A stretch of DNA of 64,000 bases from Martelella sp. NC20 (lineage in GTDB: Bacteria; Pseudomonadota; Alphaproteobacteria; Rhizobiales; Rhizobiaceae), in contig NZ_CP054861.1 in the NCBI RefSeq assembly GCF_013459645.1, positions 1,662,001-1,726,000 on the forward strand. Reading direction: 5' to 3'. A model generated the notes under the pieces. It worked only from the letters and a program-made list of their open reading frames with translations, was not told where the DNA came from and did not search any database. Position numbers and translations under genes: made by a program. Of this stretch, positions 22,264 through 34,047 are shown piece after piece (the first letter of the stretch is position 1; each line of letters opens with the position of its first letter).

Positions 22264-23142
22264 ATGCGAATTTTTCTGACCGGCGCGACCGGGTTCATCG
22301 GTTCGGCGATCGCCGCCAACCTGCTCAACGACAAACACCAGGTGCTCGGACTTGCGCGGTCGGATACGTCTGCCGAAGTCTTGCGGCAAGCGGGCTGTGA
22401 CGTCCTGCAGGGCGATCTGCATGATCTGGAGAGCCTGCGCCGTGGCGCAGAGCAGGCCGATGCGGTCATTCATACAGCCTTCGATCATGATTTTTCCCGC
22501 ATGGCGGACAACTGCGAGATGGACCGCATCGCAATCGAGGCGATGGGCAGCGCTCTTGCCGGCTCGAACAAAAGGTTCATCGTCACGTCAGGCCTGCCGC
22601 CTTTGATGGGGCAGGTTTCCACCGAGACCGATAGTCTGCCGGCCGGCGCCCATGGCATGCCGCGCGTGTCGGAGCAGGCGGCGATGGTGCTGACCGACAG
22701 CGGCGTGCGTGTGTCTGTGATCAGGATGCCGCAGGTCCACGATCAGAACCGGCAGGGATTTGCGTCCTACCTGATGGATCATGCCCGCAAACACGGTGTC
22801 TCGGCCTATGTCGGCGATGGACAAAACCGCTGGCCGGCGGTTCATCGGCTCGACGCTGCCCGGCTTTACAGCCTCGTCCTCGACAATGGTGCGCGTGGCG
22901 AGCGCTACCATGCGGTCGGCGAGGAAGGCGTTGCGGTCCGCGACGTCGTCGAAGCGATCGGCAAACGGCTGAATGTGCCGGTGACTTCGCTTTCGGAAGA
23001 AGACTCGGCAGGCCATTTCGGCTGGCTCGATCGGATCGCGAGAATGGACGTGCCCGCGTCCAGTGCCCTGACAAGGCAAACCCTGCAATGGCAGCCGCTG
23101 CAAAAGGCCGATCTCGTCCAGGACATTCTGGAATCGGTCTGA
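22264..23142 (+). CDS. NAD-dependent epimerase/dehydratase-family (atypical SDR) protein
   Basis: This 292-residue atypical SDR starts with the Rossmann motif TGATGFIGSAIAANLL and ends with a substrate domain. The usual YxxxK pair is replaced by a region with MPRVSEQAAM, so it is closer to NAD(P)-binding reductases of the nucleoside-diphosphate-sugar epimerase superfamily than to true epimerases. The ATG at 22264 follows GGAGA. It lies 70 bases after the SDR gene on the same strand and probably shares its TetR control. Substrate unknown. Confidence 0.8.
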   Translation: MRIFLTGATGFIGSAIAANLLNDKHQVLGLARSDTSAEVLRQAGCDVLQGDLHDLESLRRGAEQADAVIHTAFDHDFSRMADNCEMDRIAIEAMGSALAGSNKRFIVTSGLPPLMGQVSTETDSLPAGAHGMPRVSEQAAMVLTDSGVRVSVIRMPQVHDQNRQGFASYLMDHARKHGVSAYVGDGQNRWPAVHRLDAARLYSLVLDNGARGERYHAVGEEGVAVRDVVEAIGKRLNVPVTSLSEEDSAGHFGWLDRIARMDVPASSALTRQTLQWQPLQKADLVQDILESV

Positions 23143-23193
23143 ACGAAGGCCTGCCCCCCTGAAGTATCATCTGCTCGAATGGAGACCAAGACC

Positions 23194-24147
23194 ATGCCTG
23201 AACCAACCGTAAAGCCGGACAGACCGCCGGTGCCGATGGCGACCCCGATCCTTTCCTTCAGCCCGGTGACGTTCGAGGTCCCGGGACGCCAGGCACCGCT
23301 TGAAATGCGGGTCGTCGTTCCCGCGACGGGCGACAAGCTGCCGGTGATCCTGCTGTCTCACGGCCACGGCTCCTCGAATTTCATTGCCTCGATGCGAGGC
23401 TATGGCCCGCTGGTCGACTTTTATGCCGCCCATGGCTTCGTGGTGATCATTCCGACGCACCAGAACTCCAAGACCCTCGGTCTCGACACGACCGGTCCCG
23501 AAGGGCCGCTGTTCTGGAAATCGCGCCCCCGGGACATGAGTTTCATCATCGATCATCTGGCGGAGATTGAATCCGCCGTTCCTGGCCTTGCGGGACGTAT
23601 CGACAGGAGCCGCATCGCCGCCGTCGGTCATTCCCTGGGTGGGCACACTGTCGCCATGCTCGCCGGCATGCGCGTCAAAGATCCCGCAAATGGAGAGGAT
23701 GTTGACTTCTCCGAGCCCCGGATAAAGGCGGCTGTGCTGTTCTCGCCGCCCGGCAGTGGCAGCGGTGCCTCCGCCAGGATCGCCGAACTCTATCCGGCGC
23801 TGGTCAACAGCGACTTCAGCAGCATGACGACACCTTGTCTGGTGATGACGGGCGACAAGGACATCAACCCGATGTTCTCCGAGCGCGCGGACTGGCGGGC
23901 CGATGCATACCGACTTGCTCCCGGCCCCAAATCGCTCCTGACCCTGAAGGATGCCGGGCACATCTTCGGCGGCATATCGGGCTATGATGCGGCAGAAACT
24001 TCGGACGAAAGCCCTGAACGCGTTGCAACTGTCCAGCGCATCACCTGGGCCTACCTCCGGACCGCGCTTTATGCCGATGACCCGGCCTGGAGCACGATAA
24101 TGAGCGAGATTGAAAATGGCTCTGAGGGGCGGATCGAGAGCAAATAG
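23194..24147 (+). CDS. Alpha/beta hydrolase (chlorophyllase / PET-hydrolase-like)
   Basis: This protein of about 317 residues has an oxyanion loop LLSHGHGSSNF and the nucleophile elbow GHSLGG with Ser147. A late Asp-His pair follows (MTGDKDIN, then KDAGHIFGG). The overall pattern resembles cytosolic dienelactone-hydrolase or chlorophyllase-like esterases. No signal peptide is visible. I prefer the ATG at 23194, which has GGAG eight bases before it, over an ATG at 23179. It is the third gene of the run started by the SDR at 21447. It probably hydrolyses a small ester. Confidence 0.8.
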   Translation: MPEPTVKPDRPPVPMATPILSFSPVTFEVPGRQAPLEMRVVVPATGDKLPVILLSHGHGSSNFIASMRGYGPLVDFYAAHGFVVIIPTHQNSKTLGLDTTGPEGPLFWKSRPRDMSFIIDHLAEIESAVPGLAGRIDRSRIAAVGHSLGGHTVAMLAGMRVKDPANGEDVDFSEPRIKAAVLFSPPGSGSGASARIAELYPALVNSDFSSMTTPCLVMTGDKDINPMFSERADWRADAYRLAPGPKSLLTLKDAGHIFGGISGYDAAETSDESPERVATVQRITWAYLRTALYADDPAWSTIMSEIENGSEGRIESK

Positions 24148-24249
24148 ACAGGCCGGAAGAGCCTCGCTCCTGGCCTTCGGGGCATCGGTAGGAACCCGCG
24201 CGACCCGCATGACTGACCATGCCACCAGGCTGTTACGGTAGGGTACAGC

Positions 24250-25158
24250 TCACTTTGCCAATCGCGCCGCCAGGTCGCTCAAAAGCCAGCGGCCCGCCGG
24301 GCCGGGCACGCGATCGGCCAGATGTGCCGCGTAAATCGTCAACGGATCTGCATTCCCTCCGGTATCGTCATCAAGCATGAGCCTGACCAACCTGCCTGCA
24401 TCCAGGTGCTCCCCAACAAGATGCTCGGGCATCCGGCACCAGCCGAAACCCGCAAGCAGGAAATCCATGCGCCGTCCAAGATCGACGAACCGCCACGGAG
24501 CCGAGCCGGTCAGTCCGTAGTTCGGCCCGTCTCGGCTTGCCGGGTCGGATAGAACCAGTTGGACATGGGTCTCCAGATCGACACGGCTCGCCGGACGGCC
24601 AAGCGTCGCCAGGGGATGATCTGCTGCAGCCACGGGCACCAGGTTGATCCGGATAAGCGGCGTCGCCATCACATCCTCCGGCACGTCGGGCAGGAGCAGG
24701 CAAAGAGCAAGCGAGACGTCGCCTGCCCGCAAACGACGGAGCGCGCCGCCAAGCCCCTCGGTCGAAAAGCTGATCTGCAATTGTGGATGGGTCTCGTGCA
24801 GCGCGCGAAGACTTCCGATCAAGGGCGCGGTGGGGACCAGCGGGTCGATGGCAAGCGCTAGTTCCGCCTCCATCCCTTGACGGGATCCTGCGGCCACGGC
24901 CTCAAAACGAGCAGCGCTCGCCAACACCATCCGCGCTTGCTGCACCAGGATCCGGCCCGTGTCCGTGAGCTGCGGGCGGTGACCGCTCCGGTCGAAGAGC
25001 GTAACCCCCTGGGTCGCTTCCAGCGTGGCGACGGTCTGGCTGATGGCGGATTGCACCCGTGTCAATTTGCGGCCGGCGGCGGAAAAACTGCCGGTATCGG
25101 CGATCGCTACCAGCACGCGCAGCTGATCAAGGCTCAGCGATGAAATCAAAACTATCAC
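24250..25158 (-). CDS. LysR-family transcriptional regulator
   Basis: This 302-residue regulator has the LysR winged helix at residues 8-65 (FSAAGRKLTRVQSAISQTVA and LFDRSGHRPQLT) and a two-lobed effector domain. The start is a GTG at 25158; an internal start a few codons in cannot be excluded. It is divergent from the azoreductase gene at 25256 with a 97-base gap, the classic arrangement for a LysR activator and its target. A TGATGTGATGGATATCATCG stretch in that gap may contain the binding site. The 24148-24249 gap shows no gene. Confidence 0.88.
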   Translation of the reverse strand: MIVLISSLSLDQLRVLVAIADTGSFSAAGRKLTRVQSAISQTVATLEATQGVTLFDRSGHRPQLTDTGRILVQQARMVLASAARFEAVAAGSRQGMEAELALAIDPLVPTAPLIGSLRALHETHPQLQISFSTEGLGGALRRLRAGDVSLALCLLLPDVPEDVMATPLIRINLVPVAAADHPLATLGRPASRVDLETHVQLVLSDPASRDGPNYGLTGSAPWRFVDLGRRMDFLLAGFGWCRMPEHLVGEHLDAGRLVRLMLDDDTGGNADPLTIYAAHLADRVPGPAGRWLLSDLAARLAK

Positions 25159-25255
25159 CTGATGTGATGGATATCATCGGATTTATATCACTCCCGCTGC
25201 ATTATCGGAAGTCCTACCTTCGTCCTCATGCTCCAATCAGGAAAAGGTAAGCAGC

Positions 25256-25873
25256 ATGACAAGACTTCTCGTTGTAGAAACCAGCCCGCGCGGCAACGCC
25301 TCGGTGTCGCGCAACATGACGCAGCGCTACCTTGCGGATTGGCAGGCGCTGAACCCGAACGGGAAGGTCGTCCGTCGTGACCTTGCCGAAGAGGCCATTC
25401 CTCACGTCACGATGCCCTGGCTTGCGGCCTATTTCACACCGCCCGATGCACAGACGTCGAAGATGAAGGCGCAATTGGCACTCTCCGACATGCTTGTGCG
25501 GGAACTTCTGGAGTGCGACGAACTTGTCATCGCCACTCCGGTCTACAACTACAACATTCCCGCCGCGCTCAAGGCGTGGATCGATCATATCGTGCGCAAA
25601 GGCCTGACCCTAGGCTTCGATGGCAGCGGCCTGGTCACCGGGAAAAAGGCCACGTTGCTGATTGCCTCGGGCGGCGAATATGGCGAGGGTTCCCCGATCA
25701 GGGACCGCGACATCGCCACGCAATATCTCAGGATGATCCTGACTGTGCTCGGGATCGAAGATATCGCGGTCGTTGCCGGCGGCGGTGCCAAGAATGTCGA
25801 CCTGGGACAAATCAGCATGGAAGACTTCGTGGGCAAACTCGACATGCGGCCTGGAGAGAAGGCCTTCGCCTGA
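25256..25873 (+). CDS. azoR: FMN-dependent NADH-azoreductase
   Basis: This 205-residue flavodoxin-like enzyme has the FMN phosphate-binding start [13 protein letters not shown] and the conserved [20 protein letters not shown] segment of AzoR-type quinone/azo reductases. It reduces quinones and azo compounds with NADH by two electrons, protecting against electrophiles. The ATG follows GGAAAAGG. It is divergent from a LysR regulator that likely controls it. Confidence 0.9.
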
Positions 25874-26264: not shown

Positions 26265-26936
26265 ATGAGACTCCTGCTGATTGAAGATGAACGGGAGTTG
26301 GCGAATGCGCTGTCGGCGGCGTTGAGCAAGCATGGTATTGTCACCGACCATACCTTAAATCTCGCGGATGCATTGGAGCTCACGCTTCAAAACAAATACG
26401 ACGCCATTCTCCTGGACCGGCGATTGCCGGATGGCGAGGGCCTGACGTTCATTCCGAAGTTGAGGCGGACCGGGGTTGATACACCCGTCATTGTGCTCAC
26501 GGCCAGAAACGAACCGATGGAGCGCGTCGAGGGTCTGGACCTTGGGGCGGACGATTACCTTGGAAAGCCGTTTCTCATCGAGGAACTGATGGCGCGGGTG
26601 CGAGCCCTGCTACGCCGGCCCCCAACCCTTGAGGAACAGATTATTCGGGTGGGGCGATTGCACATCGACCCGCTGCATCTCGATGTCATGGCGGGCTCCG
26701 TGCCGCTCGATCTTCCCAGGCGCGAACTTCTGGTCCTGCAGGCGCTTGCCAGGCGCAATGGAAAGACCGTTCTTCGCTCGACGCTTGAGGATGCGGTCTA
26801 CAACTACCAGGAGGAAATACAATCCAATGCTCTTGATGCGCATATTTCGAGGCTACGAAAGCGGTTGGCGGACGCCAATGCGGGGGTAACGATCCACAAT
26901 ATCCGAGGTGTCGGATATCTTCTGAGGGAGGAATGA
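26265..26936 (+). CDS. OmpR/PhoP-type two-component response regulator
   Basis: This 223-residue regulator has a receiver domain with acidic pocket E7/D8, phospho-acceptor Asp51 (ILLDRRLPD), Thr79 and Lys101. A C-terminal winged helix of the OmpR type follows (RRELLVLQALARRNGKTVLR, then SRLRKRL and RGVGYLL). A longer frame is open upstream, but the ATG at 26265 follows ACGGAGA and starts the receiver fold. It overlaps the histidine-kinase gene by four bases. Its targets may include the crotonase/peptide/ABC genes that follow, but this is inference from order. Confidence 0.92.
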   Translation: MRLLLIEDERELANALSAALSKHGIVTDHTLNLADALELTLQNKYDAILLDRRLPDGEGLTFIPKLRRTGVDTPVIVLTARNEPMERVEGLDLGADDYLGKPFLIEELMARVRALLRRPPTLEEQIIRVGRLHIDPLHLDVMAGSVPLDLPRRELLVLQALARRNGKTVLRSTLEDAVYNYQEEIQSNALDAHISRLRKRLADANAGVTIHNIRGVGYLLREE

Positions 26937-28273
26937 TGCGCGCCGGGCGTCAATCCAATCCCTCGCTGCGATGGAGATTGAGCTGGCAGCTCAGTCTCGT
27001 GATCACGGCCGTCATTGCCGTCGTTATCATCGGGCTTTCCGTCTATGCCACGATGGTTCTTTCGCCGAATATCGCCATGGAGCAAGAGGTCAAATCCGCC
27101 GTGGCGGAGGCGATTGAGCGCGATCCCCACGGCACGCTCGCGCTCAGAGAAACGCCGGCACTTCGATCGTTGATCGAGCGAAACGACGGACTCTGGTTCG
27201 TGGCTGCCACAACCGACGGGGCTTCGCTCTCCCATGGAACCGTCCCCGCAACCTATGCCGCCCTTGTTCCGCTAGTACATCTGTTTCATTCGGCCGACAT
27301 TCGCGGGGCAAGCGGTGTGCGTGAAATCGCTTCGGTCGAGGACGTCGAGACGCCGATCGGGGAAGTCAGGATTCTCTTTGGCGGTATCGCCGGCAACGGG
27401 TGGCCTGTTCTTGCGATCCTCGCCGAGGCCTATCCGATCTACCTCTCGCTGCTCGCAATTGCGCTGCCGGCCATCTTTCTCGCGGTTCCCCAAATTGTTG
27501 GGCGTGCAATCGCGCGCGTAAGCGACATCGCTGAAATGGCGTCGCAAATCGAACCCCAGCGGCGTGGGGACCGGCTTCCTGTGGCCGGCATCCCCAAAGA
27601 GGTTGCTCCTCTGGTTGCCGCATTCAACGGCGCGCTCGACCGTATTGAGAATGAGTTCAGGAAACGCCAGCGCTTTTTGATCGACGCAGCGCATGAGCTC
27701 AGGACGCCGATCGCCATCTTGCAGACGCGGATTGAGGGCATGTGCGAAGGACTGGAGCGCAGGCGGTTGCTGGATGACGTGGCGCGTTTGGCGGATATGG
27801 CCGAACAGCTTCTCGACTTTGAACGCGGCAGCCAAACGGCCGATCTCGACGAAACGGTGGATCTCATCGAGATCGCGCGCACGGCGGTGGCGGATCTCGC
27901 GCCGCTCGCGATCGCGGCAGGTTACGAGATGTCGTTTCATGGCGACGAAATCTGCGTCGAGCGCAAAGGCGACAGCTCCGCCCTTCGCCGAGCTGTCGGC
28001 AATCTCATCCGCAACGCCATCGATCACGGCGGCGGGCATGGGACAATCACGGTTTCAGCCTTGGCGGACGGCGAAATCAGCGTGAGCGACGAGGGGCCCG
28101 GCATAGCGGCAGATCATCAGGAACTGGTGTTCGAGCCATTCTATCGCGTGGTCCCGAACAGCCGGGGGGCAGGCCTTGGATTGAGCCTGGTCAAGCAAAT
28201 CGCTGAAAAACATGGCGGGTATGCCAGTATCGAAAGCGGCTCCAAAGGCACCAAAGTGACAATGCGGCTTTGA
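26933..28273 (+). CDS. Membrane sensor histidine kinase
   Basis: This 446-residue kinase has two membrane helices (about residues 18-40 and 158-185) around a periplasmic sensor region. A HAMP-like linker follows, then the H-box DAAHELRTPIAILQTRIEG, the N-box NLIRNAIDHGG, and the G-boxes DEGPGIA and GAGLGLSLVKQI. It should phosphorylate the response regulator encoded immediately upstream, with which it overlaps as ATGA. The periplasmic ligand is unknown. From 28274 to 28558 no gene is seen. Confidence 0.92.
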   Translation: MMRAGRQSNPSLRWRLSWQLSLVITAVIAVVIIGLSVYATMVLSPNIAMEQEVKSAVAEAIERDPHGTLALRETPALRSLIERNDGLWFVAATTDGASLSHGTVPATYAALVPLVHLFHSADIRGASGVREIASVEDVETPIGEVRILFGGIAGNGWPVLAILAEAYPIYLSLLAIALPAIFLAVPQIVGRAIARVSDIAEMASQIEPQRRGDRLPVAGIPKEVAPLVAAFNGALDRIENEFRKRQRFLIDAAHELRTPIAILQTRIEGMCEGLERRRLLDDVARLADMAEQLLDFERGSQTADLDETVDLIEIARTAVADLAPLAIAAGYEMSFHGDEICVERKGDSSALRRAVGNLIRNAIDHGGGHGTITVSALADGEISVSDEGPGIAADHQELVFEPFYRVVPNSRGAGLGLSLVKQIAEKHGGYASIESGSKGTKVTMRL

Positions 28274-28558
28274 GCACGAAGAGCCGTCACCGGGCGTGAA
28301 AGCCGCAAAACGCGCCCGCCTCCGGCGCTTCTCGCAACGGCCCGACATGGATCGCGCACCGTTCTCATTCCAGTGCCTGTCTCATCTGCAGGCAACAGCA
28401 AAACGGGAACTCTGGAGCAACGCGAGAATACGTCAACGAGAAGGGGCGCCTGCCGGCATTTTGGCCGGGTCCGTAATGCTCGCGCAATCCTTGCGCCTCA
28501 TCGTTCTTCGTGAACTGCCGTTGCAGCCTGCGGCGGCGTTGAAACGAGAGCAACTTCT

Positions 28559-28678
28559 ATGAAAAACGAAAATTGCACATCTTCGGCAGAACGCCAGCCG
28601 ACTTCGCTGATGGCCGAGGTCCCCGCGCACATCTCAATCGCAGCTTCTACCACCCATTCTCGGAGGCAGTGCTCATGA
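28559..28678 (+). CDS. Possible 39-residue small ORF coupled to the crotonase gene
   Basis: An ATG at 28559 opens 39 codons (beginning MKNENCTSSAERQ, ending THSRRQCS). The stop TGA overlaps the crotonase ATG as ATGA. A weak GAGAG lies upstream of the start. The peptide is polar, has two cysteines and no membrane segment, and resembles nothing I know. It could be a translational coupler or leader peptide, or a chance frame, because the crotonase has its own good ribosome site (GGAGG at 28662). Confidence 0.3.
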   Translation: MKNENCTSSAERQPTSLMAEVPAHISIAASTTHSRRQCS

Positions 28679-29523
28679 CCTGGGATCCGCGCACAGAATG
28701 GCAGGGCTATGTCGCTCCAACCTCGTTCGATGACTACGCGAAGCGTTACGAGAGCTTTTTCAAGATGCGGCGCCAGGGCGGCATCATCGAGCTTCGCATG
28801 CACACCGACGACGGTCCCTACAAACACACCCATGCCGCCCACAACGCGTGGGCCCGCGTATGGCAAGACGTCGGCAACGATCCCGAGAACCAGGTGCTGA
28901 TCCTGACCGGCACAGGGGACAAATGGATGATGGGCGATCCGAAAGGGCTCAATCCGAAACCGGCATCAGAACTGGACCCGGACCACATCTTCCAGCGGAT
29001 GATGGACGGCTGGAAGCATGTCGAGAACTTCATCTACAGCATCGACATTCCCACCATCGCCGCCGTCAACGGTCCGGGCGTCCATACGGAATTCGCGGTG
29101 CTGTCCGACGTCACCTTTTCAGCGCCGGATGCGGATTTCATGGACCCGCACTTCTGGTTGGGAAGCCCTCCGGGCGACGGGCAAGGCATGGCGCTGCAAG
29201 CTCTGATGGGGCCAAAGCGCGCTGCCTATTATATCTACGCGGCCAAGTCCATTCCGGCGCCAATGGCCGTCGAACTCGGTCTCGTCAATGAGATTTTTCC
29301 CCGTGAAGAGCTTCTCCAAAGGGCCTGGGATATGGCCCGCTACATAATGAAACGACCGCGCTATACGCGTTGGGCGACCCATAACATCCTGTCAAGACAT
29401 TGGAAGAAGGCAATCTCCGAAGACTTCGGATTTCATATGGCGCACCAAATGCTGGCAAACGTGGCGAGCAAGTCGGTTGTGCCGGATCCGGCGCTGCTGG
29501 CCGATCCCCGCAATCCCTTTTAA
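28675..29523 (+). CDS. Crotonase-family hydrolase resembling 6-oxocamphor hydrolase
   Basis: This 282-residue protein has the crotonase fold (VLILTGTG, IDIPTIAAVNGP) but lacks the usual hydratase glutamates. It instead carries His56, His137 (VNGPGVHTEF), His159 (DPHF) and Asp168 (PPGDG). These line up with His45, His122, His145 and Asp154 of Rhodococcus 6-oxocamphor hydrolase, an enzyme that breaks C-C bonds of cyclic beta-diketones. The ATG at 28675 is chosen for the GGAGG at 28662-28666. No CoA pathway genes are adjacent. A retro-Claisen-type hydrolase is the best call; the substrate is unknown. Confidence 0.75.
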   Translation: MTWDPRTEWQGYVAPTSFDDYAKRYESFFKMRRQGGIIELRMHTDDGPYKHTHAAHNAWARVWQDVGNDPENQVLILTGTGDKWMMGDPKGLNPKPASELDPDHIFQRMMDGWKHVENFIYSIDIPTIAAVNGPGVHTEFAVLSDVTFSAPDADFMDPHFWLGSPPGDGQGMALQALMGPKRAAYYIYAAKSIPAPMAVELGLVNEIFPREELLQRAWDMARYIMKRPRYTRWATHNILSRHWKKAISEDFGFHMAHQMLANVASKSVVPDPALLADPRNPF

Positions 29524-29615
29524 TCAACCATCGGGTTGTCCTGTCGAGCCCAACGGCACTGTCAAAGCTGCCCGCCTTGTCTGCCCGGCAGGGTACACCT
29601 TTTCCCGGAGTGAGC

Positions 29616-29828
29616 ATGATTGACGATCACGAAGATCCCATCGCCCAGCAAGACATGCAGAAGCGCGGGCAATTCCTGTTGAGTCGCCGGGCGCTTTTCG
29701 CTGCCTCACTGGCAACAATTGCCGCCGCCCAGGTCTCGAAAGCCTTTGGCGGTGGCGCGCGACCCGTGATGGAGCAGATCGACCCCGAATGCGCCTATGC
29801 GTATGCCTACGTCTATGTCCTGGAGTAG
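29616..29828 (+). CDS. 70-residue Tat-like secreted or precursor peptide with a (Ala/Val)-Tyr tail
   Basis: The ATG at 29616 follows a CCCGGAG ribosome site. The product has an acidic start, a twin-arginine-like SRRALF, a hydrophobic stretch (about residues 26-43), then AFGGG and a 23-residue tail ending ECAYAYAYVYVLE. It looks either like a small Tat-exported protein or like a peptide precursor whose leader ends at the glycines. It sits 92 bases after the crotonase gene and six bases before an ABC transporter gene, so co-expression is likely. I do not recognise the family, and no peptide-modifying enzyme other than the crotonase is adjacent. Confidence 0.6.
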   Translation: MIDDHEDPIAQQDMQKRGQFLLSRRALFAASLATIAAAQVSKAFGGGARPVMEQIDPECAYAYAYVYVLE

Positions 29829-29834
29829 GCGGAA

Positions 29835-30875
29835 ATGCGCATCATCAGTCAATGCCGGTCCCTGGCGCACGGAAACAGGCAAGACATCCAATCGAACGCA
29901 GTTCTTCCTATCGCAGGCGGGCAGATGCGTCTCCCTAACCAGCACGTCGACAAGGCAAGCGTAGCCGGCATTTGCGCGCATCGACTTACCAAGCGATACG
30001 GCAATAAGCTGGTGGTGAAGGATCTGTCATTCACCGCGGAACCGGGTGTCATTACCGGCTTCCTCGGTCCCAACGGTGCCGGGAAGAGCACGACCTTGCG
30101 GATGCTGCTCGGCTTGACCGGGCCGACCTCGGGCGAAATTAGCATCGTCGGTCATCACCTCACCCAGTTGAATAATCCGGCCCGGACCATCGGCGCATTG
30201 CTGGATGCACGAGCAACTCATCCGCATCGTAGCGCATTCAATCACCTGCTCGCCTTCGCACAAGCTGCTGGCCTCGGAAGGGCGCGGGTTGGCGAGGTCC
30301 TGGATCTCGTGGGCCTCACAAGTGCCGCCCATCACCGGGTGGGAACATTCTCCCTGGGGATGAGCCAACGGCTCGGCATTGCAACGGCATTGCTGGGCGA
30401 TCCAGGCATTCTCGTCCTTGACGAGCCGCTTAACGGACTCGACCCGGAAGGGATCCGCTGGATGCGGACCTTGCTGCGAGCTCTGGCGAATGAGGGACGA
30501 ACCATCCTGTTTTCGAGCCATCTGATGTCGGAAATGGAACTGACCGCGGACAGGTTGGTCGTCATTGCACAGGGCCGACTGATTGCGGAGTGCACGCTGG
30601 AGGAATTCATCCGGCTTCACACGTCGAGCGCTGTCGCGGTCCGGACCCCTTCGCGAATTCAGCTTGCGACGGCATTAAGTCGCGCGGGCATTGCTTGCGA
30701 GGACGTTTCCGCATCGAGCCTTCTCATCACTGGCGCCGATACAGTGACCATCGGTAAAATTGCCGCTCGGGAAGCGATTGTCCTCGAAGAGTTGACCCAG
30801 GTCCGAGGTTCCCTGGAAGACGTCTTCCTTCGCCTCACGCGTGATGCGCGCGACTATGAGGGCCACGTCGCATGA
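29835..30875 (+). CDS. ABC-2-type transporter ATP-binding protein
   Basis: This 346-residue ATPase has Walker A GPNGAGKST, the signature variant FSLGMSQRLGIA, Walker B ILVLDEPLNGLDPEG and the switch FSSHLMSE, followed by an extended C-terminal domain. This is the drug/peptide export or immunity type, and the style is most often seen in Actinobacteria. The first ATG at 29835 leaves about 30 extra residues; an ATG at 29925 is a possible start. It overlaps the permease gene by four bases and follows the 70-residue peptide gene by six bases. Confidence 0.88.
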   Translation: MRIISQCRSLAHGNRQDIQSNAVLPIAGGQMRLPNQHVDKASVAGICAHRLTKRYGNKLVVKDLSFTAEPGVITGFLGPNGAGKSTTLRMLLGLTGPTSGEISIVGHHLTQLNNPARTIGALLDARATHPHRSAFNHLLAFAQAAGLGRARVGEVLDLVGLTSAAHHRVGTFSLGMSQRLGIATALLGDPGILVLDEPLNGLDPEGIRWMRTLLRALANEGRTILFSSHLMSEMELTADRLVVIAQGRLIAECTLEEFIRLHTSSAVAVRTPSRIQLATALSRAGIACEDVSASSLLITGADTVTIGKIAAREAIVLEELTQVRGSLEDVFLRLTRDARDYEGHVA

Positions 30876-31630
30876 GCATCTTGTGTTCCGAATGGACAAA
30901 GCTCTCCAGCGTCAGAACCACCTGGTTGCTGGTGGTGAGCGCAATGCTCGCGAGCGTGTTGCTGGGGCTTCTCGGCGTGTCCGACCTGATCGGCGCACAG
31001 CCGTCAGACTTGCCCGATGACTGGGATCCGACGGCGACGAGCCTGAAGGGGCTCCTGTTCGCTCAACTCCTCGTCGGAATGCTCGGAGCGCTCAGCATCA
31101 CGTCCGAATATGACACCGGAATGATCGCGACCAGTCTCTCCATCGTCCCTTCGAGACCCCACCTTCTGATAGCGAAGGCGGCTGTGGTTTCTGGGATAGG
31201 GCTTGGCACCGGCATTGCCACGGCCCTGATCAGCTTCACGGCGGTACAGATGGTGCTCGGCGATGCTGGTATCCCGATCGCGAGCATAGGCGGCCCGCGT
31301 GTTGCCTGGGCGCTCGTCGGAGCCGCGATTTACCTCACGCTCGTCGCCGTTATCGGGCTTTCTGTTGGCGTTCTTGCGCGGTCGACCGCAGGCAGCCTGG
31401 CGGCACTTGTCGGCATCACTCTGCTCACGCCCGCTATCGCTCCTTCCATACCTGGTCCGATCGGCGATTGGTTTGCGGAGTATTGGCCGATTACCGCCGG
31501 CCAGAAGGCCTATACGGTCATACAGCTCGCCAATGAAGTTACACCATGGCTTGGACTGGGAATCCTTACGGCGGCAACTTTCACGCTTGGGATTGCCAGT
31601 ATCGTGGCATTCGTCCTGCGAGATGCCTGA
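30872..31630 (+). CDS. ABC-2-type transporter permease
   Basis: This 252-residue inner-membrane protein has six helices and the pattern EWTKLSSVRTTWLL, then GALSITSEYDTGMIATSL, typical of ABC-2 permeases paired with NatA-like ATPases. Such pairs export small molecules or peptides, or give immunity to them. Both this sequence and its ATPase look more like actinobacterial than alphaproteobacterial versions, which suggests acquisition by transfer. The start overlaps the ATPase stop as ATGA. The following 172 bases show no gene. Confidence 0.85.
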   Translation: MSILCSEWTKLSSVRTTWLLVVSAMLASVLLGLLGVSDLIGAQPSDLPDDWDPTATSLKGLLFAQLLVGMLGALSITSEYDTGMIATSLSIVPSRPHLLIAKAAVVSGIGLGTGIATALISFTAVQMVLGDAGIPIASIGGPRVAWALVGAAIYLTLVAVIGLSVGVLARSTAGSLAALVGITLLTPAIAPSIPGPIGDWFAEYWPITAGQKAYTVIQLANEVTPWLGLGILTAATFTLGIASIVAFVLRDA

Positions 31631-31802
31631 CTGGCCGTAGCGCACGCTTCCTGGTCGACGGTATCGCCCAAGCAAAAGTGTGCTTGAGCCTCCACCCAAC
31701 CGCGCCGACGGCCGAATCATCCGTCATTAGACCAGTGTGTAATGTTGCGGCAATCCTCCGCTCGCATCGTCCCTCCAATATTTGTGACGGAGGCTGTAAA
31801 GC

Positions 31803-32705
31803 GTGAACAACAATCCATCAATTTTCTCGTTCCGAGGATTTGCCGCTTCTCGCCGTCCTATTCCATTGAGAGACCTCGGTCTGGCCATATCGGTGATTTT
31901 TGCGGTATCCGGATGTGCCTCGGTGCCTATGAAGGAGGCTGGAACACTCACCTCCTACAGCAATCTCAGTGCGCCTAAGGGAAAGCTGTCAAAGAAGCGA
32001 ATCTACGTAGACGGCCAAGGTCTGGCCGCGGTGAAGACGGTCAGTATCGTGCCAACCACCTACGCCTTTGGCGCCGCACCCCGCGTCAAAACGCAAGCAG
32101 ACCGTTCTCTGGTCTCAAATGCACTGGATCGGGCGCTCTGCGTCGCGCTGAGCGATAAATATCAGATGGTTCCAGCCGGCCAGCCGGCGGATATCACAAT
32201 CCGATCCGTCATCGCCAACGTTGTACCAACGAACAAGATCACAGCGGGGATTGCAGCCGTTGTCACCGTGGGTGGCGGTTTTGCCATACCCGGCGATGTT
32301 CCCTTTCTCAGCGTGCCACGACTGCCCATCGGCCTGGGTGGGCTGGCTGTGGAAGCGGAGGCCGTTGATAGCGGCGGCGTCCAGCGCGCGGCGATCGTCT
32401 GGGCTCGCGGGGCAAACGCAATCCAGGACAACCCTCGCGTTTCGGAGGTGGGCGACGCCTATGGCCTCGCATCGAAGTTCGCGAGTGACTTTTCCGGAAT
32501 GCTTGTCACAGGCGAGGAGCCAAAGATGTTGGACATTTCCCTTCCATCGAAACACGGCGTGCAATCCTGGCTCGGCGGAAAACCGAAATACGCCGCGTGT
32601 GAAGCCTTTGGCCGGGCACCTGGCGTGTTTGGCGCCATCGCGGCCAATTACGGGCTGCCACCGGAATGGACCGAAAAGAAGCCCAAACCGCTCGTGACGC
32701 ACTGA
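31803..32705 (+). CDS. Lipoprotein of the DUF3313 type
   Basis: This 300-residue protein has a hydrophobic signal and a lipobox ending at Cys38 (FAVSGCAS), so it should be lipid-anchored in the cell envelope. The mature part (YVDGQGLAAVKTVSIVPT, then DKYQMVPAGQPADITIRSVI) fits the DUF3313 family of envelope lipoproteins. The start is a GTG at 31803; no ATG gives the signal peptide. It stands alone, 172 bases after the ABC permease. Function is unknown. The 189 bases that follow contain no gene. Confidence 0.75.
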   Translation: MNNNPSIFSFRGFAASRRPIPLRDLGLAISVIFAVSGCASVPMKEAGTLTSYSNLSAPKGKLSKKRIYVDGQGLAAVKTVSIVPTTYAFGAAPRVKTQADRSLVSNALDRALCVALSDKYQMVPAGQPADITIRSVIANVVPTNKITAGIAAVVTVGGGFAIPGDVPFLSVPRLPIGLGGLAVEAEAVDSGGVQRAAIVWARGANAIQDNPRVSEVGDAYGLASKFASDFSGMLVTGEEPKMLDISLPSKHGVQSWLGGKPKYAACEAFGRAPGVFGAIAANYGLPPEWTEKKPKPLVTH

Positions 32706-32894
32706 CACATTCCAGTCGCCGCGCGAACAGAGCGTTCCGGAACCTCGTATCCCCAAACACTTCACCGTTCGAGCCCGTTGCCAAGCCGAACTGGCTCTTC
32801 CGATTCTGCGACGTGCAAAACGACGGCAATTCATCCCTTTCGGTCAGTTTGAATCCCCGACCGATGCATTCAGGATAACCAGGAGATTGACCCC

Positions 32895-33359
32895 ATGCGC
32901 CAACCCGAAGCGTGGTTCCAACGAAACCCCAGCTTCCACCAGAATAACAGAACGGCGCCACATGCAGGTCATCGTTTTGTCTGGAGCCTTGAAGCCTTTG
33001 GGATTGCCGGAAAGCGATTGCGCCCGGCGATCATTGCGGCGTTGAGCCTGCTCATCTCGCTGCAGGCCGCCATGGCCGCCGCGCCATCGGCTGCGGTCAA
33101 GGAAACGTGCGGAGCGGAAATACGGTCGATCTGCCTGCGGCCATGGCGACTTACGCCTGACGCCATATCGGCCTGTGTCGAGGAGAACAGTTCGAAGCTG
33201 TCTCCCGTCTGTCAGGCTTTTTGGGGCACCGCCAGCATGTGCCAGTCAGAAATGAGGGAAATCTGCGGCGGGCTAAACCCATTCACAATCAAAAGTTGCC
33301 TGAAAAACCAGAAACACGAGTTTTCGCAACTATGCCAGGATACCCTGAACACAGAATAG
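32895..33359 (+). CDS. Secreted protein with two cysteine-rich repeats
   Basis: This 154-residue protein has an extended N-region, a hydrophobic signal (about residues 43-62, ending AAMAAAPS), and two repeats of the pattern C-x3-(I/M)-x3-C-x(9-11)-(S/A)C-x(9-10)-C: CGAEIRSIC with ISACVEENSSKLSPVC, and CQSEMREIC with IKSCLKNQKHEFSQLC. This matches the small Cys-rich repeat also seen in Golgi apparatus protein 1. It is probably periplasmic with disulfides. The ATG follows AGGAGA. Role unknown. Confidence 0.7.
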   Translation: MRQPEAWFQRNPSFHQNNRTAPHAGHRFVWSLEAFGIAGKRLRPAIIAALSLLISLQAAMAAAPSAAVKETCGAEIRSICLRPWRLTPDAISACVEENSSKLSPVCQAFWGTASMCQSEMREICGGLNPFTIKSCLKNQKHEFSQLCQDTLNTE

Positions 33360-33403
33360 GGATCTTTCTTTCACTTTATGGACGAGAAAGCGGAATTGGT
33401 TTT

Positions 33404-33736
33404 ATGCCAGACCTTGCATTTGATCTTCGCCATCTCCAATACGCGATGCCGGTCGCCGACCATGGAAGCTTTCGTCGAGCCGCTGATGTTCCGGATCTGC
33501 CTCAATCAACGATCAGCAGGCGGGTTCAATCACTTGAGCGGCGACTTGGCATTACACTTTTTGAACGCAGCAGAACCGGTGCTCATCTGACACATTCGGG
33601 GGCGGAATTCATCCGCCAGACAACGTTTGGCGCGGAGCACCTTCGCCACGCAGTGAATGATCTACGTTCGGTACAGCGCGGATATATTGGCGAACTCCGT
33701 CAGGGCATTGTGGGGTCTCTAGTGTCCCGATTCTGA
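33404..33736 (+). pseudogene. LysR-family regulator truncated by an insertion-sequence remnant
   Basis: The frame encodes an intact LysR DNA-binding domain (FRRAADVPDLPQSTISRRVQ, then ERRLGITLFERSRTG) and the start of the linker helix. It ends after about 110 residues where IS630-type DNA begins near 33725. The effector domain of about 200 residues is missing, so this is a 3'-truncated gene. The short product could still bind DNA, but it is most likely non-functional. Confidence 0.8.
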
Positions 33737-34047
33737 AGTCCGGTTCATTCTATGGATTTGCTTTGATTGTCCGGAGGCAGAAGCGTTGGTTGCTGGCGAG
33801 GATGTCGTCGGGGGACTTGGTCCAGCGGAATACGCCACGCCTGAGGGCGCGTTCGGTCAGCAGCGCGAAGAACCGTTCGACCTGGTTGATCCATGACGCC
33901 GATGTGGGCGTGAAATGCACATGCCAGCGCGGACGCTTGGCGAACCAGTTGCGGATCAGCCTGGTCTTGTGTGTGCCGTCATTGTCCATGATGACGTGAA
34001 TGTCGAGATCTGCGGGCACGTTGCGCTCGACCTCGTCGAGTATCCGC
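33725..34047 (-). mobile_element. IS630-family transposase remnant
   Basis: On the minus strand a frame reads RILDEVERNVPADLDIHVIM followed by DNDGTHKT and HFTPTSASWINQVERFF. This is the C-terminal DDE-superfamily catalytic part of IS630-type transposases. The N-terminal half is missing, so the element cannot move by itself. It sits between the truncated LysR gene and the 3' end of a sulfatase gene, and probably marks a deletion that joined two formerly separate regions. Its true ends were not resolved. Confidence 0.75.

Follow-up and report, generated by a model that had tools for sequence, protein, structure and literature searches.

The twin-arginine translocation (Tat) pathway exports folded proteins, some of them as complexes in which the signal sits on one partner (PMC10924467), and such hitchhiker export is already known. 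In HybOC and PaoABC, only one partner carries the export signal, and that partner is a whole enzyme subunit (PMC4273604; PMC10924467). In Streptomyces, the signal-less tyrosinase MelC2 hitchhikes on the Tat-signal protein MelC1 (PMC2758597), a caddie whose Tyr98 sits in the enzyme pocket (PMC6312201). Here, we describe a gene pair of Martelella sp. NC20 that encodes a crotonase-fold hydrolase without a leader of its own and a 70-amino-acid microprotein with a twin-arginine leader. The pair lies in a window of 64,000 nucleotides (contig NZ_CP054861.1, positions 1,662,001 to 1,726,000) of a 6.1-Mb genome. By analogy, the closest known arrangement is MelC1/MelC2, in which a small Tat-signal protein is likewise encoded beside a signal-less enzyme in a two-gene unit (PMC2758597). 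The Martelella pair differs in that no copper enzyme is involved, the small gene lies downstream, the mature part of its product is predicted to span ~22 to 30 residues, and co-export is putative. It differs from HybOC and PaoABC in that the signal bearer is a microprotein and co-export is putative.

A scan for the crotonase with one genome per species, the window's own genome excluded, gave 22 loci (L006 to L027). Ten genomes carry both genes, namely that of the window, those of L006 to L013, and G006 (L004/L076), with L006/G001, L010/G009, and L013/G259 each counted once. The pair is found together in all 10, which include members of Martelella, Breoghania, Agrobacterium, Xanthobacteraceae, and Pleomorphomonas, among others. 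The peptide gene follows the crotonase stop on the same strand after 69 to 93 nucleotides in L006 to L013 (92 in the window and 81 in G006). Exactly one open frame ending in Y.Y.Y is present in each of L006 to L013, and none in L014 to L027 or L030 to L033. In the genus sample, a close crotonase (at least 93% identical) occurs in 4 of 13 genomes, the window's own included, and the peptide in the same four (Fisher test, P = 0.0014, a value that ignores kinship). In the order sample, 2 of 397 genomes have a crotonase of at least 77% identity, and these are also the two with a full-length match to the peptide (Fisher test, P = 1.3e−5, likewise ignoring kinship). Among the 398 genomes of the phylum sample, a close crotonase is confined to the window genome; a relative of 42% identity occurs in one other genome, and the 3.8-kb locus of that relative has no Y.Y.Y tail. 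In a tree of 25 rows, whose root is not fixed, which contains L023 as a long branch, and from which L030 and G006 were left out, nine peptide-bearing crotonases fall on one side of a branch (support 96/99), corresponding to one state change. For four further peptide and crotonase clusters, the longest contigs are equal in length (16221, 4890, 2466, and 948 bases), which suggests, but does not prove, that the members of each pair share a contig. Judging from these patterns of occurrence, we consider it nearly certain that crotonase and microprotein form the conserved unit. An earlier note on this DNA would have taken the arrangement for chance if crotonase homologues never neighbored the peptide or the transporter elsewhere; for the peptide, they do so in every genome of the group.

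Searches with tblastn and all-against-all BLAST (hits of at least 40% identity) were used to compare the genes lying within ~6 kb of the crotonase in either direction, or up to the limit of the locus sequence. The genes for the response regulator and histidine kinase are found in 6 of the 10 loci, in L007 in pieces and apparently frameshifted; their place upstream of the crotonase is taken by a TetR gene in L012 and L013. The ATPase of the ATP-binding cassette (ABC) transporter is whole only in the window, partial (14 to 45%) in L006, L007, L008, L010, and G006, and undetected in the loci L009 and L011 to L013, while the only trace of the ABC-2 permease outside the window is an 8% remnant in G006. 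Because the transporter is intact in one genome, survives as ATPase fragments in five, and left no trace in four loci, it looks, on gene content, like an older, decaying neighbor rather than a core part. The DUF3313 gene is present in four of the 10 loci and the Cys-rich gene in six (55 to 61% identical in L012 and L013); a whole-genome search for the latter found it in 2 of the 13 genomes of the genus. After the Cys-rich gene, L012 (7580-9013) and L013 (7630-9024) encode a lipoprotein-like protein of 464 to 477 codons, which in L012 has no Pfam match at E 0.001. The L011 locus retains the crotonase and peptide genes alone, and L006 these two and ABC fragments. Since the two genes stay adjacent in scattered bacteria as their other neighbors turn over, we link the peptide to the crotonase, and the pattern suggests that the two work together.

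The gene presence table across the 10 genomes ruled out the whole cassette as a conserved unit. The layout given in the earlier note, with the crotonase, the 70-residue Tat-like peptide, and the ABC-2 pair in one direction behind a two-component system, was borne out by the open reading frame (ORF) listing, the sequence, and profile scans, and the co-directional run continues past the ABC-2 pair into the DUF3313 and Cys-rich genes. The expectation that the crotonase would have the same neighbors elsewhere came true for the peptide, in several families, and failed for the ABC-2 pair, which is intact only here. What survives of the proposed single system is the crotonase/peptide unit, and the ABC-2 and two-component genes are not conserved with it.

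The window peptide, whose twin-arginine region reads SRRALF, has 20 database relatives at 70 to 91% identity. L011 to L013 carry a diverged form behind the crotonase, ending in WEYAYVYAY[ER], and a profile built from both forms matches 35 database proteins at E ≤ 0.01, including those 20. In an alignment of 28 members (A2), from which 11 of the 35 database proteins were dropped (nine Martelella-type sequences, P0025, which is the same as L012, and P0032, a 44-amino-acid protein with its predicted start behind the twin arginine), M1, R24, R25, Y63, A64, Y65, and Y67 are invariant. The twin arginine and a C-terminal Y-A-Y-x-Y are thus common to all 28 peptides, and in each of them the twin arginine lies 43 to 50 residues from the C terminus. 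AxA-like cuts, scored as a pattern only and with several sites possible in each peptide, would mostly leave a mature part of 22 to 30 residues. CGGAGTGAGC lies directly upstream of the peptide gene, and a ribosome-site-like stretch ahead of the gene is conserved. The ratio of nonsynonymous to synonymous substitution rates (dN/dS) of the peptide is 0.20 to 0.77 in 15 pairs of the Martelella-type clade, where the crotonase has 0.05 to 0.12. The other clade contributed three peptide pairs: two have a ratio of 0.36, and the third is saturated. Because these values are below 1, we regard the peptide as constrained, with a loose middle and a strongly constrained tail. Pfam and NCBIfam hold no model for the peptide family itself, and the window member matches no family there. 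The Tat motif RR-x-[FGAVML]-[LITMVF], quoted in PMC2758597, fits 21 of the 28 aligned peptides. At E ≤ 0.01, three of them match the Tat-signal profile TAT_signal_seq of NCBIfam (TIGR01409) and one matches TAT_signal of Pfam (PF10518); one touches the NCBIfam PaoA model. A PDB profile search with the peptide gave matches to the leader part alone, up to column 58 of 71. TatC is present in the window genome.

Weaker matches to the peptide profile were seen in G042 (E 0.0046, first relatives search), at eight places in the window genome (E 0.003 to 0.86), and, at E 1.5e−6 to 1e−3, in further genomes of the order sample (77) and the class sample (18). Many span the leader columns, and some, such as those in G253, G224, G387, and G181, reach columns 62 to 69 of 71. 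The 40 of these loci that were checked (L005, L034 to L040, and L042 to L073) have no Y.Y.Y-tailed frame and were rejected as true members. In the order and class samples, 15 candidates per genome were scored, a depth at which a true peptide could be missed.

The crotonase matches Pfam ECH_1 (E 8.6e−18), and its best PDB relative is 6-oxocamphor hydrolase (1o8u, E 5.2e−41), in line with the family named in the earlier note. That note's start at 28559 is the start of a mini-ORF; the ATG at 28675, which has GGAGG ahead of it, is likelier. The fold is closest to 6-oxocamphor hydrolase (1o8u/1szo) and Anabaena beta-diketone hydrolase (ABDH; 2j5g/2j5s), with 27 to 32% identity. Among the catalytic residues of ABDH are H43, H144, and D153 (PMC3584854), which align with H56, H159, and D168 of the window crotonase and are invariant in the 46 aligned rows. 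The enzyme is a putative coenzyme A (CoA)-independent C-C hydrolase of the 6-oxocamphor/beta-diketone hydrolase type. It is unlike those enzymes in having Gln258 in place of the catalytic Glu (E243 of ABDH), a column that holds Gln in 43, Glu in 2, and Asn in 1 of the 46 rows, and in having a partner peptide in its clade. Of 584 database relatives, the best 120 were examined for an N-terminal signal by hydropathy only, and the sole case was P0124 (320 amino acids, 53% identical), which has a signal-like stretch at its N terminus. A relative in Marinobacter nanhaiticus (P0041) is 79% identical. The window genome also encodes a second crotonase of this kind (L081; G000:C1:5489884-5490609), which is 33% identical to the first and has no tyrosine-tailed peptide in the 3-kb stretch examined.

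We tentatively propose, at somewhat less than an even chance, that the microprotein is the Tat-targeting partner of the signal-less crotonase. The crotonase, a CoA-independent C-C hydrolase in this model, would fold in the cytoplasm and be bound by the tyrosine-ladder tail (Y-A-Y-x-Y) of the microprotein; the twin-arginine leader would then carry the folded complex through the Tat channel and be cut off there. In the periplasm, the crotonase may act on a beta-diketone-like compound, beside the Cys-rich and lipoprotein-like proteins, and the two-component, TetR, and ABC genes would supply replaceable regulation or efflux. Because a mature part of this length seems too short to form a fold that would call for Tat, it is likely that the peptide either accompanies a folded partner or is first changed in the cytoplasm. 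The context leans to export, since the Cys-rich and lipoprotein-like neighbors look exported by eye and P0124 has its signal-like stretch. The full proposal is possible but doubtful: a microprotein consisting mainly of a Tat leader and a tyrosine-ladder tail, acquired once and with no loss seen in the clade, would ferry a crotonase-type C-C hydrolase to the periplasm. It might then be the smallest Tat escort in nature and the first to serve the crotonase superfamily.

Several observations weigh against Tat escort. Seven of the 28 aligned peptides miss the Tat motif, and the window peptide is among the many that match neither Tat profile. Only three of the four catalytic residues are kept in the crotonase, the Glu being replaced. 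Crotonases of this type are trimers or hexamers, a large load for Tat. Close relatives of the enzyme also occur without the peptide. At 13 loci of Actinomycetota (L014 to L022 and L024 to L027), whose crotonases are 68 to 77% identical, no Y.Y.Y frame was found on either strand within up to 12.8 kb. The peptide is likewise absent from the locus of the proteobacterial metagenome-assembled genome L023 (crotonase 73% identical) and from a plasmid of Eleftheria terrae (Pseudomonadota), which carries a disrupted crotonase copy of 71% identity (L033:8001-8953, NZ_CP106953.1; ~120 extra bases, annotated as a shortened gene). The enzyme can therefore work without the peptide. The more distant crotonases of L030 to L032 (38 to 44% identical) have no such peptide within ~1.5 kb. 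Finally, in AlphaFold2 models of read-through fusions from L008 and L012, the crotonase part is well formed, while the predicted local distance difference test score of the peptide part is below 50 throughout in L008 and, with two residues excepted, in L012 (modeled as one chain, from an alignment with three fusion rows). These models lend no support to docking, and yet they are no fair test of a trimer.

The Actinomycetota loci largely share genes for a TetR regulator, an amidohydrolase, MFS, RidA, and PALP proteins, a split TPP enzyme, and an aldehyde dehydrogenase. This set reads as a catabolic cluster, and its pathway could reveal the substrate of the crotonase.

A rival to Tat escort that is unlikely, if still worth serious attention, is that the microprotein acts independently in the periplasm, as a sensor ligand, a protective peptide, or a peptide of the envelope, and shares only its regulation with a crotonase for detoxification or catabolism, making no contact with it. 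The neighbors, which include a sensor kinase, a signal-bearing Cys-rich protein, lipoprotein-like proteins, and an exporter, suit such a factor, as does the failure of AlphaFold2 to place any peptide part confidently. The sensor kinase, however, is missing from 4 of the 10 peptide-bearing loci (the search covered the loci only), apart from ABC fragments in L006 the loci L006 and L011 keep no other cassette gene, and the adjacency of crotonase and peptide outlasts the turnover around them. We judge it less probable still that the microprotein is akin to a ribosomally synthesized and post-translationally modified peptide, that is, a precursor whose tyrosine-rich core is modified by the crotonase or another cytoplasmic enzyme and which is exported behind its Tat leader as a signal, metal ligand, or inhibitor. 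A short conserved YAYxY core, preceded by an export leader and a variable linker, is what such a precursor would look like, one enzyme is constantly adjacent, and the use of Tat suits a peptide modified in the cytoplasm. However, the Pfam-scanned neighbors include no radical-SAM, YcaO, lanthipeptide, P450, or peptidase family, although the crotonase itself could be the modifier, and the close crotonases of Actinomycetota occur without any peptide. We know of no crotonase that acts on ribosomal peptides, which also counts against this reading.

That the whole run, from two-component system through crotonase and peptide to ABC-2 exporter, is one system to sense and resist or to make and export a compound, as the earlier note had suggested, seems improbable. 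The genes do share a strand with short gaps in the window, and ATPase fragments at the same place in five other genomes suggest an old gene order in the clade, but the ABC pair is intact in one genome of 10, and the two-component genes are missing from four loci. Chance adjacency or a spurious small ORF is barely credible, unless the protein is never made: the frame has only 70 codons and its window member is without a Pfam or NCBIfam family match, and against this stand the 35 database proteins, the residues kept invariant toward either end of the peptide, a dN/dS that stays below 1 in each of the 15 pairs, the conserved ribosome-site-like stretch, and the matching occurrence of crotonase and peptide in the genus and order samples.

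If Tat escort is true, a tail of ~25 residues would suffice for binding a folded enzyme and exporting it. This would bear on how small a Tat partner can be, and the tail might find use as a short tag for export; an enzyme that cleaves beta-diketones would also be placed outside the cytoplasm. If the peptide is modified instead, crotonases would be linked to ribosomal peptides. In the open-licence literature, judged by titles, we found nothing on this microprotein family or on a crotonase tied to Tat, and neither a microprotein Tat escort of this kind nor a crotonase cargo turned up.

Features of the crotonase/microprotein region in the window
Feature	Position	Strand	Remarks
OmpR-type response regulator	26265..26936	+	Pfam Response_reg and Trans_reg_C; accessory, in loci of 6/10 genomes
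Histidine kinase	26933..28273	+	Pfam HisKA and HATPase_c; accessory, in loci of 6/10 genomes, in pieces in L007
39-codon mini-ORF	28559..28678	+	TGA overlaps crotonase ATG; may be coupled to it, of uncertain status
Crotonase-fold hydrolase, 282 aa, 6-oxocamphor/beta-diketone hydrolase-like; core gene 1	28675..29523	+	
70-aa microprotein, twin-arginine leader and C-terminal CAYAYAYVYVLE; core gene 2	29616..29828	+	
ABC ATPase of ABC-2 type exporter	29835..30875	+	Pfam ABC_tran; not conserved
ABC-2 membrane protein (permease)	30872..31630	+	Pfam ABC2_membrane_4; not conserved
DUF3313 protein, lipoprotein-like N terminus (by eye)	31803..32705	+	Pfam DUF3313, E 3.9e−28; accessory
Cys-rich protein, N-terminal signal-like stretch (by eye)	32895..33359	+	Accessory, beside both peptide subfamilies

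The genes for the ABC ATPase and the ABC-2 permease overlap by 4 nucleotides. The mini-ORF ahead of the crotonase has tblastn matches of 49 to 59% identity in L008, L009, L010, and G006, one of 53% over 87% of its length in L007, and none at E ≤ 1e−3 in L006 and L011 to L013; this similarity could reflect plain DNA conservation. Simple scans found no promoter-like match in 28000-33500 and no terminator-like match in the gap between the crotonase and peptide genes. A scan with an anti-phage library gave ATPase-type matches and one weak regulator match and nothing else. Upstream, 22264-25873 holds epimerase, alpha/beta hydrolase, LysR-like (by eye), and azoreductase-like genes, which are 75 to 94% identical beside the cassette in some of L007, L008, L009, and L010 and unmatched in others of these. 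Directly past the Cys-rich gene lies a fragment of a LysR-type regulator (33221-33736, by eye), and a minus-strand piece of 89 codons at 33750-34019 resembles, also by eye, the end of an IS630-type transposase. The downstream edge of the cassette seems to have been disturbed by a mobile element.

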